A stretch of 64,000 nt of DNA, taken from positions 62,001 through 126,000 of the forward strand of contig JADZEX010000021.1 in NCBI GenBank assembly GCA_020850355.1. Direction: 5' to 3'. The position numbers were made by a program, and so were the translations under genes. The stretch is from Fimbriimonadaceae bacterium (GTDB lineage: Bacteria; Armatimonadota; UBA10988). How positions within the stretch are numbered: the stretch's first letter is position 1; every line of letters begins with the position of its first letter. The notes beneath the pieces were generated by a model, which did no database searches, was not told where the DNA came from, and worked only from the letters and a program-made list of their open reading frames with translations. Shown here piece by piece: positions 4,889-26,822 of this stretch.

Positions 4889-4904
4889 TGTTTCACGTGA
4901 AACA
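4889..4904. other. parS: parS-like ParB-binding site
   Basis: Perfect 16-base palindrome TGTTTCACGTGAAACA, identical to the consensus bacterial parS recognised by ParB/Spo0J for chromosome segregation. It lies between genes, 102 bases from the next copy. Confidence 0.85.
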
Positions 4905-19659: not shown

Positions 19660-21168
19660 GTGCCAGCAGCCAGTCTGAGAATCGAACGCGACTACACCAT
19701 CGGGACCGTCGATCCCCGGCTCTACGGCGGCTTCGCCGAACACCTCGGGCGGTGCATCTACGAGGGGATCTGGGAGCCCGACCACCCAACCGCCGACGCC
19801 CACGGCTTCCGCGGCGATGTGCTGGCGCTGGTGCGCGAGCTGGACCTGCCGGTGATGCGCTACCCCGGCGGCAACTTCGTGTCGGGCTACTCCTGGGAGG
19901 ACGGCGTCGGCCCCCGCGAGCAGCGGCCGGTGCGGCAGGAGCTGGCCTGGAAGTCGCGCGAGCCGAACTGGGTTGGCACCAACGAGTTCGTCGACTGGTG
20001 CCGCCTGGCGGGCACCGCGCCGATGCTGGCGGTCAACCTGGGCACCCGCGGCCCCGAGGACGCCCGCCGGCTGGTGGAATACTGCAACCACCCCAGCGGC
20101 ACGCAGCTCAGCGACCTGCGGCGCAGCCACGGCTGGGAGCAGCCCCACGGTGTCAAGTTGTGGTGCCTCGGCAACGAGATGGACGGGCCCTGGCAGATGG
20201 GTCACAAGACCGCGCAGGAGTACGGCCGCGCCGCCTGCGAGGCCGCCAAGTTGATGAAGTGGACCGATCCCAGCTTGGAGCTGGTGGTCTGCGGTTCGTC
20301 GCACCGTGGGATGCCGACCTTCGGGCACTGGGAGCGGGAAGTACTGGACCACACCTTCGACCAGGTGGAGTACGTCTCGATCCACACCTACCTCGGCAAC
20401 CAGGCTGGCGACACCGCCAGCTTCCTGGCGAAGCCCGACGCGATGGGGCGGTTCATCGACGAAGTCGTGGCGACGGTCGACCACGTCGCGGCCTGCCGGC
20501 GCTCGCGCAAGCGGATCCAGCTCTCGTTCGACGAGTGGAACGTCTGGTACCACAGCCACGACGACCGGCGCCAGCGGCGGATCGAGGATTGGGCAATCGC
20601 CCCGCCGATCCTGGAAGACCACTACAACGTCGAGGACGCCCTGGTCGTCGGGGGCATGTTGATCGAGTTGTTGAACCACTGCGACCGCGTGAAGATCGCC
20701 TGTCTGGCGCAGGTTGTCAACGTGATTGCACCGATCCTGACCGCCCGCGGCGGGGCGGCCTGGCGGCAGACCATCTTCCACCCGCTGGCGCAAGCCTCGC
20801 GCTGGGCTCGCGGCGAGGTCCTGCGGGGGCTGCTGCGTTGCCCGACCTACGACTGCGCCGAACAGGCCGGCACGCCCCTGCTGACCGCCGCCGCGGTGCT
20901 CGACCCGGCCAGCGGCGAGGTCACCGTGCTGGCGCTGCACCGCGGGTTGACGGAGCCGTTGACCCTGCGGATCGACGCGCGCGGCTGCGGTGACCTGCAG
21001 CCGATCGCGGCGTGGGTGCTGCGCGACGACGACCTGCTGGCCGTCAACACCGCCGCCCAGCCAGACCGCGTTGCCCCGCAGCCGGCGGCGCTGCCCGTCT
21101 CGCAGGACGGCCTGCTGCAGGTCGAGCTGCCGCCGGCGTCGTGGAACGTGCTGCGGTTCAGGCGCTGA
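19660..21168 (+). CDS. GH51 alpha-L-arabinofuranosidase
   Basis: A 502-residue glycoside hydrolase releasing terminal alpha-L-arabinofuranose from arabinan or arabinoxylan fragments. The TIM barrel carries RYPGGNFVSGY, the acid/base in GNEMDGPWQ (Glu173) and the nucleophile in FDEWNVWY (Glu292). No signal peptide, which is normal for this family and points to intracellular oligosaccharide processing. GTG 19660 is chosen because AGGGAG sits seven bases upstream; the GTG at 19633 lies inside a parS-like palindrome. Its 3' end overlaps the convergent oxidoreductase by 11 bases. A GH127 arabinofuranosidase lies at the far end of the window. Confidence 0.92.
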   Translation: MPAASLRIERDYTIGTVDPRLYGGFAEHLGRCIYEGIWEPDHPTADAHGFRGDVLALVRELDLPVMRYPGGNFVSGYSWEDGVGPREQRPVRQELAWKSREPNWVGTNEFVDWCRLAGTAPMLAVNLGTRGPEDARRLVEYCNHPSGTQLSDLRRSHGWEQPHGVKLWCLGNEMDGPWQMGHKTAQEYGRAACEAAKLMKWTDPSLELVVCGSSHRGMPTFGHWEREVLDHTFDQVEYVSIHTYLGNQAGDTASFLAKPDAMGRFIDEVVATVDHVAACRRSRKRIQLSFDEWNVWYHSHDDRRQRRIEDWAIAPPILEDHYNVEDALVVGGMLIELLNHCDRVKIACLAQVVNVIAPILTARGGAAWRQTIFHPLAQASRWARGEVLRGLLRCPTYDCAEQAGTPLLTAAAVLDPASGEVTVLALHRGLTEPLTLRIDARGCGDLQPIAAWVLRDDDLLAVNTAAQPDRVAPQPAALPVSQDGLLQVELPPASWNVLRFRR

Positions 21169-22255
21169 CCGCGACCCGGCTGCGGTCCTGCAGGCTCTGG
21201 AAGATCGCCTCGAAGACCACCAGGTCGCGGGCGGCGTCGGCCCCACTGCTGCGGAACGGCCCGCCGCTGGCGGCCTGGGTCACGAAGTGCTCGATCTGGT
21301 TGGCGAACGACCAGCCTGGCGGGACCAGCGCCTCCTCGACGCCGCGGCCCGGCCGCTTGACGACCACCCGGCCCGGCGCCCGGAGCAGCGGCGCGGCGAG
21401 GTGGAGTTCGAGGTAACCACGCTCGAAGAGCACCTGCACCCCTTCACACCACGGCTCACTGTCCACCTTGCCAGCGCTGAAGACGGCATGGAACCCGTCG
21501 TAGGCCAGCACCGCGGTGAGGGGCGGGTTGTAGGGGAAATCCCCCAACGTGGCGACCGCGCTCTCGACGGCGGTCGGCTCGCCCAGCAGGTAGCGCAGCA
21601 GGTTGACATCATGGCAGAGGTTGGCGATGCAGCCGGCATAAGTCTTGCCGAGGTCGGCCCGCAGCCACGCCGGGACGCCGTACGCGCCGAAGGTCACGCC
21701 CGCCGGCTTCGGCTCGCTGGGGTCGCTGAGCAGGTCGCGCGGGTAGCCGGCGATCCAGTCGCCGTGGTGGTTCCAGACCCGTGCGCTGACCACCGCGCCC
21801 AGCTCGCCGCTGGCCCGCCACTCGTCCAGTAGCCCCTTGGCCAGTTCGCTGGCCGGGTCGTAGCGCTTCATGTAGCCGACCATCAGCCGGCTGCCCGTGC
21901 GCTCGGCGGCATGCACACAGGCCAGGGACTCGGCGGCGTTCAGCGCCAGCGGCTTCTCGGCGAAGACCGGCTTGCCCGTCGCACAGGCCGCCGGCAGCAG
22001 CTCCAGGCTGCGCTCGCCCGGCAGGCTGACCGCCACCGCGTCGACCGGCTCGGCGGCCAGCAGCTCCGCGATGCTGCCATAGACCGCCGGCCCGCCGTGC
22101 CGCGCCGCCAGACGCCGCGCGATGCTCGGGCGGCTGCTGGCCAGGGCAACCACCGCACAACCGGGCTGCGCCACCAACAGCGGCAGGTGCACTGCCTGCC
22201 CCATGAACCCGCTGCCCCAGAACGCCACCCGCAGCGGCGCCGCCTGCTCTGCCAT
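21158..22255 (-). CDS. Gfo/Idh/MocA family oxidoreductase
   Basis: A 365-residue NAD(P)-dependent dehydrogenase of sugars or cyclitols. The Rossmann loop is FWGSGFMGQ near residue 15 and the catalytic motif is AEKPLAL (Glu100-Lys101-Pro102). The C-terminal half is the mixed sheet domain typical of the family. It acts in the cytoplasm; substrate unknown, though the convergent arabinofuranosidase makes sugar metabolism likely. ATG 22255 has GAGAGG just upstream. Two parS sites lie directly before the gene. Confidence 0.88.
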   Translation of the reverse strand: MAEQAAPLRVAFWGSGFMGQAVHLPLLVAQPGCAVVALASSRPSIARRLAARHGGPAVYGSIAELLAAEPVDAVAVSLPGERSLELLPAACATGKPVFAEKPLALNAAESLACVHAAERTGSRLMVGYMKRYDPASELAKGLLDEWRASGELGAVVSARVWNHHGDWIAGYPRDLLSDPSEPKPAGVTFGAYGVPAWLRADLGKTYAGCIANLCHDVNLLRYLLGEPTAVESAVATLGDFPYNPPLTAVLAYDGFHAVFSAGKVDSEPWCEGVQVLFERGYLELHLAAPLLRAPGRVVVKRPGRGVEEALVPPGWSFANQIEHFVTQAASGGPFRSSGADAARDLVVFEAIFQSLQDRSRVAVSA

Positions 22256-22276
22256 CGGCCTCTCCCGTCGGCGGGG

Positions 22277-22292
22277 TGTTTCACGTGAAACA
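22277..22292. other. parS: parS-like ParB-binding site
   Basis: Perfect TGTTTCACGTGAAACA, 22 bases upstream of the oxidoreductase start and 56 bases from its partner site. Confidence 0.85.
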
Positions 22293-22332
22293 GCCGGACA
22301 CCTGCCAGGTCGACCGACCGGTGGGTGTGACG

Positions 22333-22348
22333 TGTTTCACGTGAAACA
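22333..22348. other. parS: parS-like ParB-binding site
   Basis: Perfect TGTTTCACGTGAAACA directly abutting the hairpin that follows the first MPEYIPII gene. Confidence 0.85.
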
Positions 22349-22353
22349 GAACC

Positions 22354-22386
22354 GGCCGCCCGCACCCCAGCGGAGTGCGGGCGGCC
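22354..22386 (-). terminator. GC hairpin, probable terminator of the 22416 gene
   Basis: A perfect 12-base stem, GGCCGCCCGCAC pairing with GTGCGGGCGGCC, with a nine-base loop. Read leftward it lies 30 bases past the stop of the MPEYIPII gene and is followed by GGTTCTGTTT, a weak T tract that merges into the parS site. Confidence 0.6.
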
Positions 22387-22415
22387 CGGCAGCCGTTGCC
22401 ACGGCTGTGGCGTGG

Positions 22416-23228
22416 TCAGTCGTTCGGCAGTTGAGGCACCAGCAGTGCCGCCGCCGCGGCCTTCCGGAACTCCTGCCCGCCGCGCTGGAAGGTGGCGAGG
22501 GTCACGGCGACCAGGTACTCCGGGCAAGGCTGCTGGAGTTTGGTCGGCACCACCCGCAGCTTCACGGCGACCCGCTTCTCGCCCTGCGCGTTGGCCGTCT
22601 TGAGGTCGGTCCAGACGGCGCCCTGGGCGTCCTTCAGCAAGCCGGGCTGGCTGTTGCCGGTCCAGCCGAGTAGCCATGTCTGCAGATGCACCTTGGCAGC
22701 GGCAGCCGTCGGCCTGCGGCTCAGGCGGACCAGCCAGTCGAGCTCCCAGGTCCCGCTCTCGAGGGCCACCACCGGGTCCAACGGCCGGACGGTCAGTTGC
22801 ACCGATCCAGCCGTCGCCTGGTTCGGGTCGACCAGCGCGGTGGCTGTGGGCAGCGGCCAGGACACCGCGCCGGGCTGCGCCAGCAGCACCAGCACCTCGC
22901 CAGCGTTGCCCTCGCCGCGGACCGCCACCGGGACGCCGCTCGCCAGGTGGCCGGTCGGCACGGTGACCTCCACGCGGCTGGCGAGCACCGCCGCCCGGGC
23001 GTCCTCACCGCAGACCAGCGCGCCGCCCGCCGCCAGCTCGAGTCGGCCGGGCGTCACCAGCAGCGGGAGGATCGGCACCACCAGCGGCTTGGCCGCGCTG
23101 GCGACCACATCACTGTGGACCTGCACGAAGCACTCGAAGGTGGGCCGACTCAGAATGCCAGGGCCGCCCGGTGTGATCGGCGTGGCACCTGGGCCACCTG
23201 GGTCGATGATCGGAATGTACTCAGGCAT
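22416..23228 (-). CDS. MPEYIPII protein A, unknown function
   Basis: A 270-residue protein I do not recognise. It starts MPEYIPII, followed by a Gly/Pro segment (DPGGPGATPITPGGPG), then a strand-rich body with repeated hydrophobic/threonine-valine stretches (VHLQTWLLGW, RVAVKLRVVP), suggesting a beta-sandwich or structural protein. No signal peptide or membrane helix is evident and there are only three cysteines. ATG 23228 has GGGGAGG eight bases upstream. The first eight residues, the 5' leader, the 3' hairpin and the paired parS sites are shared with the gene at 23452, but the interiors hardly resemble each other. Confidence 0.75.
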   Translation of the reverse strand: MPEYIPIIDPGGPGATPITPGGPGILSRPTFECFVQVHSDVVASAAKPLVVPILPLLVTPGRLELAAGGALVCGEDARAAVLASRVEVTVPTGHLASGVPVAVRGEGNAGEVLVLLAQPGAVSWPLPTATALVDPNQATAGSVQLTVRPLDPVVALESGTWELDWLVRLSRRPTAAAAKVHLQTWLLGWTGNSQPGLLKDAQGAVWTDLKTANAQGEKRVAVKLRVVPTKLQQPCPEYLVAVTLATFQRGGQEFRKAAAAALLVPQLPND

Positions 23229-23313
23229 CGTGACCTCCCCTTGGGCGACGGGCCCTGGCTCCCCAGTGCGGCCGCTCCCAGCACCAACGGCGCGGCCCGA
23301 CCCGTCGGGCGGC

Positions 23314-23329
23314 TGTTTCACGTGAAACA
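23314..23329. other. parS: parS-like ParB-binding site
   Basis: Perfect TGTTTCACGTGAAACA between the two MPEYIPII genes. Confidence 0.85.
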
Positions 23330-23368
23330 GGCCACCACCTGCCACGGCGTGCGGCCAGCGGCGTGACC

Positions 23369-23384
23369 TGTTTCACCTCATACA
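23369..23384. other. Decayed parS-like site
   Basis: TGTTTCACCTCATACA matches the consensus at 13 of 16 positions; the left half-site is intact and the right half is changed. It occupies the same place relative to the hairpin as the perfect site at 22333 in the neighbouring cassette. Confidence 0.5.
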
Positions 23385-23386
23385 GG

Positions 23387-23424
23387 ACCGGCCGCCCGGA
23401 CCCCAGCAGGGCCCGGCGGCCGGT
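23387..23424 (-). terminator. GC hairpin, probable terminator of the 23452 gene
   Basis: ACCGGCCGCCCGG pairs with CCGGCGGCCGGT apart from one bulged C, 28 bases past the stop of the second MPEYIPII gene. It is the counterpart of the hairpin at 22354. The T tract after it, read leftward, is poor. Confidence 0.5.
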
Positions 23425-23451
23425 CGCTCCGATCGCGTTGCGGCGGGCCGC

Positions 23452-24198
23452 CTACCAGCTCGTGATCAGCGTCGTGGCGGCCGAGGCCGCGCGCAGCCGC
23501 GTGTTGTTGGCGCCCAGGAGCGTGGCCACCACCAGCGCGGCGATCCCGCTGGTACCCGACGGCACGGCCAGGTCGCTGGAGTCGATCACGATCTCCGTGG
23601 TCGCGCTGCCGGCCCCGGCGGCCAGGTTGAGCGTGTCGGTTTCCAGGTAGACGCCCTGGCCGGTCTCGTTCACCAGCGTCAGGAGGCTGCTCAGCGCCAC
23701 CACCCGCACTTCGATCAGCAGATCAGTCGCGGCGCTGAGCGGGGCGTTGAAGTGAATCACCGCCGGAATCGTCCAGACGCCGTTGTCGGCCTCCGCGAAG
23801 AACGGCAGAGTGAGGCGCTGCTGCACCGTCGCCGAGCCGGCGCTGGGCTCCAGCATCACCGTCGACAGGGCCGGCCGGGTGCTGCTGACCGACGCCATCA
23901 GCAGCACCAGATCCTGCGTGTACGTCGTGGTGCTGGCCGGCGCGTTGCTGACGCGGGTGTTCATCGAGATCCACGCCGGCGCGGGCGACTGCGTCTGCGG
24001 GTCGGTCGGTCCCGGCGGTTGCGCCGTCGGGTACAGCGCGCCATCGGCCGTTGTCAGCATCGCCGGTGTCAACGCCACGCTGTCGCCGTCTTCGCCCGCC
24101 GGCTGCGGCAGGGTCACCTGCCACGAAATCGAGGTCGAACCCATCGCCGGTTCGCCGACCGGGGTCGGCGGGGTGATGATCGGAATGTACTCTGGCAT
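23452..24198 (-). CDS. MPEYIPII protein B, unknown function
   Basis: A 248-residue protein of no family I recognise. It starts MPEYIPII followed by a Pro-rich segment (TPPTPVGEPA), and the rest is rich in Ser, Thr, Ala and beta-prone runs (TEIVIDSSDLAV, LLIEVRVVALSSLL), with no cysteine and no membrane helix. It looks like a secreted-type or structural beta fold but has no signal peptide. ATG 24198 is preceded by GGGGAGGG. It starts 26 bases after the cyclase-STAND gene stop and is likely in that operon. Paralogue of the gene at 22416 by its ends and flanks only. Confidence 0.75.
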   Translation of the reverse strand: MPEYIPIITPPTPVGEPAMGSTSISWQVTLPQPAGEDGDSVALTPAMLTTADGALYPTAQPPGPTDPQTQSPAPAWISMNTRVSNAPASTTTYTQDLVLLMASVSSTRPALSTVMLEPSAGSATVQQRLTLPFFAEADNGVWTIPAVIHFNAPLSAATDLLIEVRVVALSSLLTLVNETGQGVYLETDTLNLAAGAGSATTEIVIDSSDLAVPSGTSGIAALVVATLLGANNTRLRAASAATTLITSW

Positions 24199-24224
24199 CT
24201 TGCCCTCCCCTTTGGCGACGGTCC

Positions 24225-26822
24225 CTAGCTCCCCAGTGCGACCGCCACCACCACATCGAGTGAGGCTTCGCGTCCGGTCTCCCAGTCGGCCTGTGACACC
24301 GGATCGGCCTGCAAGGCTGTCTCCAGCTCGTCCCAGCGGGCGTGCTCATCGGCTTGCGGCTGCATGGCCAATGCCTCCCGCAGGGCCATCGCCTGACCGG
24401 CCAGGAGCGCCGCGCGCCGCGAATCGCCGCGCTGCCAGGCGATGTGGGCCAGGAGGCTCAGACAGAACACCATCCCCCGCTGGTCCCCCAGGTCCAGCCG
24501 CTCTCTTAGGCTCGCCCGGGCCGACTCCTCCGCGGTCTCCAGATCGCCTGCGCGCCAGGCCTGTTCGGCCAGGTTGTACTCCACCGCCCCGGCCTGCACC
24601 CGCGCGCCGAGGCTCCGGAAAGCCGCCGCGCTCTCCCGCAGCAGCCCGACCGCGGCCTGCAGCTCCGCCATCTCCATCCGCGTGTTGCCAAGGTTGTTGA
24701 GCACCGTCGCCAGCCCCAGCTCGTGGCCCGCGGCGCGGTAAAGGGGCAGCGCCTCCTCGAACAACGCTGTCGCCTCCGCCCACTCGCCGGCGGTGCTGCA
24801 CAACAGGCCGAGGTTGTTGAGCGACCCGGCCACCGCCAGCGGGTCACCAAGCTCGCGCCGCAGCGTCAGCGCGGCCTGGTGGTGGACCCGTCCCGCCGCC
24901 AGGTCGCCCTGCGCCACCGCCAGGATGCCCGCGGCGTTGAGGGCCTCGGAGCGCGACTCGGGGCTGCCGCCAACCAGGGCGACCGCCGCCTCGAGGTACC
25001 GCCGCCCGGTCGTGAAGTGACCGCGGATGTACCAGTACTGCCACAGGGCCGCCGCCAGCTCCTGCGACAGAATCGGCTGGTCGGACTCGCGAAGCGCATA
25101 CTGCAGGGCCACCTGCAGGTTCGGGTGGTCGCGGTCCAGGCTGTCGAGCCAGCGGGCCTGCTGCGGTCCGCGCAACTGCGCTGCTGCCGTGGCGGCCAGC
25201 TCCCTGAACCACCGCGCGTGCTCGGCCGCCACCGCGTCCCAGGTGCCGGCCTGCCGTAACTGCTCCTGCCCAAACAGGCGCAGACTCTCCAGCAGGCGGT
25301 AGCGCTCCACCTCGCCGGCCGTCTCGCTGAGCAACAGCGAGCGGTCGACCAGCGCGGCGAGGGTGTCCAGCACCTCGAGCGGGTCACCGTCGCCACAGAC
25401 CGCCGCCACGGCATCGAGGTCGGCCCCGCCGCGGAAGACACTCAGCTTGGCGAACACCTCGCGCTCGGCCGGGGCCAGCAGGTCGTAGCTCCAAGACAGC
25501 GCCGTCGCCAGCGTCTGGTGCCGCGCCAGCGCGGTGCGGCTGCCGCCGGTCAGCAGCCGGAAGCGGTCGTCCAGCCGTTCGGCGATCTGCGCCGGCGTCA
25601 ACACCCGCACGCGCGCCGCGGCCAGCTCAATCGCCAGGGGCAGGCCATCCAGCCGGCGCACAATCGCCGCCACGGTCGGCGCGTTCTGGGCGTCCAGCGC
25701 AAAACCAGGTCGGACCGCCGCCGCGCGGTCGACGAACAGCGCCACTGCCGCCAGCTCGGCGATCTGCTCCAGCGCCAGCCCATGGCCCGGGCACGGCAGC
25801 GGCGGCAGGCGGTAGAGCGCCTCGGCCCCGACCTGCAACGGCTCTTGGCTGGTCACCAGCACCCGCAGCCCGGGCGCGGCCACCAGCAGCGCCTCGACGA
25901 CCGCGGCGACGGCGTCGATCACCTGCTCCGCATTGTCGAGCAACAGCAGCGACTGCTTCGCCTGCAAGTGGTCCTGCAGCACCTCCCGCAGCGTCCGGCC
26001 GAGTTCCTCCTCGACCCCCAGCGCCCGCGCCAGGCTCGGCTCGATGTCGACTCCGGCGGGCAGATCGGCCAGCGACACCCGCCAGACCCCGTCCGGGTAG
26101 TCGTCCAGCACCTCGGCCGCCAGCCGGTCAGCCAACCGGGTCTTGCCGCAGCCGCCGGGCCCGCAGATCGTCAGCACTCGCCGGCCGGCCAGCAGCTCCA
26201 GGGCCTCGGCCAGCTCAACCTCGCGCCCGATGAAGCGCGTCGTCTCGGCCGGCAGGTTGTGCCGCTGTGTCGGGGCCGTGCGGAGGGCCGGGAAGACCCG
26301 CACCAGATGCGGCGCGGTGACCTGGGCGATCACCTCGGGCTCGACCAGGCTGCGCAGGGCGTGGGTCCCCAGGTCCAACAGCCCCCACCCGGCCGGCAGC
26401 ACCAGATCGCTGGCGGCGCTGCCCGATACCAGAATCTGATCGCCGTGACCCGCCGCCATCAGCCGGGCGCAACGGTTCAGCGTGGGTCCGAAGAAGTCGC
26501 CCTCGCGGCGCACGGCGGGCCCCCGATGGATGCCGATCCGGACCTTCAGCCGCCCGACCGGCGGGTGGACCGCCTCGCCCAGCACCTGCTGCATCGTCAC
26601 CGCCGCCAGCACCGCCGCGGTCGAGTCGACGAAGGCCGCCAGCACGCCGTCGCCGGTGCTCTTGACCAGCAGCCCACCCTCCGCCGCGATTGCCGCCGCC
26701 ACTGTGGCGTCGTGCCAGGCGAGGATCTCCGTCATCACCTGTGGATAGCGTTCCCAAAGCGGCGTACTGCCCTCGATATCGGAGAACAGAAACGTCCATA
26801 CCTCGGTCTGCGGTGCGGCCAA
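24225..26822 (-). CDS. Adenylate/guanylate cyclase - STAND ATPase - TPR regulator
   Basis: An 865-residue signalling protein. Residues 1-150 form a class III nucleotide cyclase with both metal aspartates (FSDIEGST, STGDGVLAAF) and the transition-state Asn/Arg (GPTLNRCARL), so it may be active. A STAND/NB-ARC-type ATPase follows (P-loop CGPGGCGKTRLAD near residue 224, LLLLDNAEQV as Walker B, RLDGLPLAIELAAARV), and the C-terminal third is TPR repeats (SLNNLGLLCS, TVLNNLGNTR). Such fusions are usually ligand-sensing switches. TTG 26822 is chosen because such proteins begin just before the TFLFSDIEGS motif and GGAG lies upstream; a start about 20 codons earlier is possible. Divergent from the acyltransferase. 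Confidence 0.85.
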   Translation of the reverse strand: MAAPQTEVWTFLFSDIEGSTPLWERYPQVMTEILAWHDATVAAAIAAEGGLLVKSTGDGVLAAFVDSTAAVLAAVTMQQVLGEAVHPPVGRLKVRIGIHRGPAVRREGDFFGPTLNRCARLMAAGHGDQILVSGSAASDLVLPAGWGLLDLGTHALRSLVEPEVIAQVTAPHLVRVFPALRTAPTQRHNLPAETTRFIGREVELAEALELLAGRRVLTICGPGGCGKTRLADRLAAEVLDDYPDGVWRVSLADLPAGVDIEPSLARALGVEEELGRTLREVLQDHLQAKQSLLLLDNAEQVIDAVAAVVEALLVAAPGLRVLVTSQEPLQVGAEALYRLPPLPCPGHGLALEQIAELAAVALFVDRAAAVRPGFALDAQNAPTVAAIVRRLDGLPLAIELAAARVRVLTPAQIAERLDDRFRLLTGGSRTALARHQTLATALSWSYDLLAPAEREVFAKLSVFRGGADLDAVAAVCGDGDPLEVLDTLAALVDRSLLLSETAGEVERYRLLESLRLFGQEQLRQAGTWDAVAAEHARWFRELAATAAAQLRGPQQARWLDSLDRDHPNLQVALQYALRESDQPILSQELAAALWQYWYIRGHFTTGRRYLEAAVALVGGSPESRSEALNAAGILAVAQGDLAAGRVHHQAALTLRRELGDPLAVAGSLNNLGLLCSTAGEWAEATALFEEALPLYRAAGHELGLATVLNNLGNTRMEMAELQAAVGLLRESAAAFRSLGARVQAGAVEYNLAEQAWRAGDLETAEESARASLRERLDLGDQRGMVFCLSLLAHIAWQRGDSRRAALLAGQAMALREALAMQPQADEHARWDELETALQADPVSQADWETGREASLDVVVAVALGS

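Follow-up and report, generated by a model that had tools for sequence, protein, structure and literature searches.

A short EYIP peptide opens otherwise dissimilar tandem genes behind a cyclase-STAND-TPR regulator and recurs behind related regulators in another genus

Two tandem genes, here called A and B, follow a regulator with cyclase, STAND and TPR domains in a Fimbriimonadaceae genome (G000) and share the first eight residues, MPEYIPII, while their cores hardly align. Both the EYIP peptide and its place behind such a regulator are found again in another genus, where the cores differ, and the 5' end of gene B duplicates the DNA of the regulator-A junction. The explanation that we put forward, plausible though tentative, is that A and B are tandem members of a lineage-restricted, EYIP-tagged orphan family placed behind the regulator, with ends that were copied between units and, less certainly, a tag that docks on it.

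The window, i.e., the whole 64,000-nucleotide stretch analyzed, is G000:C22:62001-126000 of an assembly of 6.67 Mb in 117 contigs. Along its minus strand, the order is regulator, gene A, hairpin, parS pair, gene B, hairpin, parS pair and a Gfo/Idh/MocA oxidoreductase, with the following features:

24225 to about 26840, minus strand: regulator gene; class III cyclase, NB-ARC/AAA (STAND) and TPR repeats; start approximate
24175..24254, minus strand: conserved 5' block of unit A; final regulator codons with the stop at 24225-24227, ribosome-binding region, MPEYIPII codons
23452..24198, minus strand: gene A; 248 aa, with MPEYIPII followed by a Pro-rich linker and a core predicted to be beta-rich
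23386..23425, minus strand: terminator-like hairpin 3' of gene A; fold of -46.1 kcal/mol for 66 nt, z -2.6
23369..23384, no strand assigned: degenerate parS-like site; 3 mismatches
23314..23329, no strand assigned: parS; exact 16-mer
23205..23284, minus strand: conserved 5' block of unit B; copied regulator tail (non-coding), ribosome-binding region, MPEYIPII codons
22416..23228, minus strand: gene B; 270 aa comprising MPEYIPII, a Pro/Gly-rich linker and a predicted beta-rich core
22354..22386, minus strand: terminator-like hairpin 3' of gene B; 15-bp stem, z -4.7
22333..22348, no strand assigned: parS; exact 16-mer
22277..22292, no strand assigned: parS; exact 16-mer
22255-21158, minus strand: Gfo/Idh/MocA oxidoreductase, after the second parS pair

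Both genes are real coding sequences, with a third-position GC of 0.92 (A) and 0.89 (B) and the best score in the frame given, and they are probably co-transcribed with the regulator. An Rfam scan of 21000-25500 returned no RNA family. The regulator matches Guanylate_cyc (3.6e-10), AAA_22 (3.4e-9), NB-ARC (1.4e-5) and TPR_12 (4e-20) in Pfam, and its sequence contains FSDIEGST, KSTGDG and LNRCAR, which we take to be cyclase motifs; since these are kept, the cyclase is probably active.

The ends of the two units are nearly identical at the DNA level, as the initial annotation had proposed for the leaders and the start peptide, noting also similar 3' hairpins. The quoted leader (23211-23270 versus 24181-24240) is identical at 54 of 60 bases, and the full block (24175-24254 versus 23205-23284) at 70 of 80 (87.5%), whereas 20,000 shuffles reached 38/80 at most. 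Within MPEYIPII, seven of the eight codons are identical, including ATT, an unusual codon at a GC3 near 0.9. The block also reaches into the regulator: upstream of A the regulator ends in VVVAVALGS-stop, while the copy upstream of B reads VLGAAALGSQ, its stop having changed from TAG to CAG (23255-23257), and this tail is no longer coding yet about 81% identical. Because the end of the regulator frame thus recurs, without coding, within the block of B, the near-identical ends represent a copied DNA segment. On the 3' side, both hairpins fold better than shuffles, the two parS sites beside each gene start 55 and 56 bp apart, and the identity is 80% over 108 bp, two parS included. With parS masked, the A and B neighborhoods still match one another better than any other of 52 parS neighborhoods (self excluded; E about 5e-5). 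The similarity of the units is thus collinear at both ends, as expected of one duplicated cassette.

A repeated system of exchangeable cassettes, as originally suggested, does not emerge from these data. The leader segment occurs only twice in G000, with no third cassette found there; a leader-like match on C46 was short and at chance level, and we rejected it. The leader similarity includes the copied regulator tail, and the parS doublets, while matching in spacing, contain one site with 3 mismatches among the four, are not specific to the two units and belong to a genome-wide array (see below).

The cores barely align, as had been claimed. BLASTP confines the A-B alignment to the first 17 residues (E 9e-4), the codon alignment past the shared start is 20.5% identical, and third codon positions in the cores match at 0.40, compared with 0.42 for random pairing. 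Local alignment gives a p of about 0.08, and the C-terminal halves a z of about 3.7 for a split that was picked by eye after looking, so that homology of the cores is possible. Also as annotated, neither protein has a recognizable family in searches of Pfam, PHROGs, NCBIfam, PADLOC or PDB. The structure predictions that had been proposed as a check were made without homologues and are of low confidence (pLDDT 41 for A and 45 for B), and they yielded no usable fold assignment: the model of A had no match in a PDB fold search, whereas that of B, with strands within residues 143-264, retrieved beta sandwiches of the ApaG and arrestin type (best E 3e-4; TM under 0.5 save for one short target), which we set aside given the poor model. 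Searches for homologues of A and B in 60 relatives, of gene B in the genome collection, and in viral contigs and phages gave none usable; a combined A and B profile returned only weak fragment matches in 290 other genomes of the phylum.

The far lower similarity of the cores than of the ends disfavors duplication of the whole unit at the time of the end copying; either the ends were copied later between neighbors that already differed, or the cores underwent unusually rapid change or replacement. Plain tandem duplication of the whole unit, in which the cores diverged very fast, purifying selection held leader, peptide, terminator and parS, and no parts were exchanged, would account for ends that resemble each other on either side of the gene, with order and spacing kept, and for the weak similarity of the C-terminal halves. 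We nevertheless consider it somewhat unlikely: the 5' end looks recent, given the well-preserved non-coding tail and the almost unchanged synonymous sites of the peptide, while the third positions of the cores are fully randomized, and selection at the DNA level would be needed on a leader that is not conserved in the other genus carrying the peptide. At the other extreme, an unrelated gene B could have received the leader and first eight codons of A by a short DNA copy, making the peptide a mere passenger. Similarity does drop sharply after codon 8-13, core similarity is not significant, and copying of short segments is frequent here; such a capture is still quite improbable to us, as it leaves the similar 3' side (hairpin and parS pair) unexplained, and B shares with A the Pro/Gly linker and the predicted beta-rich core, albeit in a low-confidence model. 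Under the explanation that we favor, an A-B pair would already have had diverged cores when the 5' end, and perhaps the terminator/parS end as well, was copied between the two units; end copying after core divergence would make the ends look young and the cores old. Counted in its favor is the commonness of short-segment copying in these contigs, e.g., a phosphomutase-like 3' tail with parS that recurs 12.7 kb away at 94%.

The peptide itself was traced by using the regulator as query in nine genomes and reading the downstream flanks. In G002, from a different genus of the same family, two regulator homologues each have, immediately downstream, a gene with EYIP near its start. On contig C574, the regulator is 46% identical over 826 aa to that of the window, and the gene behind it starts inside the last regulator codons; its product (protein C; truncated at the contig end after 133 residues) carries DPEYIPITTNK near its start and has nine consecutive prolines between motif and core. 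On C482, a regulator fragment (48% identical) is joined by an ATGA overlap to the TEYIPMA gene, which encodes protein D (L251; 256 residues, with TEYIPMAGT near the start). The cores of C and D match each other (BLASTP E 3.5e-6, z 7.9) but do not match A or B above shuffles, and neither C nor D has a Pfam match; a comparison of D with plasmids gave no match. Protein D has one EYIP at residue 20 and another at 129, a second copy arising in 8 of 20,000 shuffles, which suggests that it may consist of two modules each opened by EYIP. The idea of an interior and ends that evolve differently is thus partly upheld, in that the two apparently differ in their history and the N-terminal peptide is retained irrespective of the rest, standing before non-aligning cores in another genus; a search across genomes for PEYIPI[I/T] codons recovered one further regulator-linked gene, C, and the leader DNA is not conserved in G002.

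The distribution of the peptide is narrow. PEYIPI[I/T] codons occur only four times in 291 genomes of the phylum, i.e., in A, B, C and once in G208, there far into a longer frame that is unrelated. Among regulator paralogues whose flanks could be read in G000, G001, G002 and G008, no EYIP gene came up beyond the two in G002. The peptide thus stands behind such a regulator in two genomes only, and other family members and most flanked paralogues are without it, which indicates that the regulator does not need an EYIP partner. Repeats of PYIEGDPTTSSPVDPPPD before a paralogue on C64 of G000 looked similar and were rejected, as they belong to a different, metalloprotease-like protein: upstream of that paralogue (L238), tandem 18-residue PYIEGDPTTSSPVDPPPD repeats precede a predicted metalloprotease with an HELGHGLG motif.

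From these comparisons, the EYIP peptide is probably a functional tag. A conflicting reading, in which EYIP forms the opening beta strand of the fold and its conservation reflects folding, draws on protein D, where the peptide at residues 20 and 129 is placed as if opening two domains; the second copy is as compatible with a structural strand as with a tag. The nine prolines that part motif from core in protein C, together with the Pro-rich linkers of A and B, speak against a strand, and we regard this reading as unlikely. Very unlikely, in our view, is the model of the initial annotation, in which the peptide serves as an address that sends exchangeable cargo into a compartment or a secretion machine. 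It would suit a conserved short N-terminus ahead of a variable core, but no shell, injection or secretion gene was found among the immediate neighbors examined. The recurring neighbor is instead the STAND-cyclase regulator, which makes docking to the regulator the better guess.

The parS pairs are not parts of the cassettes, as 159 parS-like sites with at most 1 mismatch are present genome-wide in G000 (reversed control, 0), a count that may include a few sites twice owing to the fragmented assembly and contig overlaps (the ends of C46 and C59 share sequence). Counts are 0-7 in 60 relatives, 0-14 in 290 genomes of the phylum (slightly different pattern) and one in each of three family members. 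Within the window, sites start at 4889, 4991, 19519, 19555, 19625, 22277, 22333, 23314, 58207 and 58264. The map is complete only for four contigs, C22, C46, C59 and C96, which hold 127 of the 159 sites; 129 of 134 sites on them (up to two mismatches, crude gene call) are intergenic. Most clusters comprise 2-3 sites at a spacing of around 55 bp, and conservation is limited to the 16 bp plus roughly one base to either side, as would be expected of selected binding sites. On the same four contigs (L033-L048 and L068-L080; crude gene call), convergent gaps make up only 20 of the 119 gaps longer than 100 bp but hold 19 of 50 clusters, which thus seem to favor gene ends. C96 starts with yidD-yidC-jag followed by parA-parB, the usual gene order beside oriC. 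We also observed copied parS segments between intergenic regions of G000 (C46:76637-76746/89295-89404, C96:103106-103231/130314-130430 and C96:44185-44253/55053-55117), one of which dragged along the 3' tail of a gene (94% over 110 bp). Short-segment copying is a possible route of parS spread, and the array is a natural experiment on the number of ParB loading sites that a chromosome can bear.

As a plausible architecture, members of the A/B family would open with the short EYIP tag at the N-terminus, followed by a linker rich in proline and by a core that diverges fast and is probably a beta sandwich. With less certainty, EYIP would dock on the partner regulator, probably on its TPR repeats, and the core may sense a variable ligand or serve as a variable output, so that several cores could feed one signaling protein. 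Such docking would be a minimal way for a STAND signaling protein to take many different partners. The locus also indicates that neighboring genes can differ in history between their DNA ends and their protein cores. A broader version, which we consider rather unlikely as a whole, is that the very short tag couples fast-changing beta-sandwich partners to the STAND-cyclase regulator, that ends and cores recombine independently, and that short-segment copying reshapes intergenic regions and spread the approximately 159 parS sites.

The array resembles ParABS centromere clusters in its consensus parS (TGTTTCACGTGAAACA), a single ParB match in the genome (with ParB_N and HTH_ParB) and clusters near parAB, and differs in its 159 candidate sites, about 2.4 times the highest published count that we found, 65 in Streptomyces albidoflavus J1074 (PMC8743542); other published extremes are 20-23 (PMC7333895). 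The gene upstream of A has the same domain order as the cyclase-NB-ARC-TPR regulators (AfsR-like/STAND signaling proteins), for which the literature searched describes no EYIP partner gene. A further parallel is provided by the effector-associated domains (EADs) of STAND and related conflict systems, folded and mostly helical domains of core and effector proteins that interact homotypically (PMC8195603). As with EADs, a terminal module is common to otherwise different proteins, stands beside a STAND-type core and is repeated in the locus (PMC8195603), and a STAND core gene (NB-ARC/AAA and TPR) lies in the same predicted operon upstream of A, with the same order in G002. However, the shared part comprises about 8 residues rather than a folded domain, EYIP scans of the regulator loci returned only the downstream genes and one unrelated protein, with no EYIP seen in the regulator, instead of a module shared by core and effector, and no known effector domain was recognized in A or B (Pfam, NCBIfam, PADLOC) or in C or D (Pfam). 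Lacking a shared module in the core gene and a known effector domain, the A/B system is not a member of the EADs, and by analogy it would work like the EAD principle.
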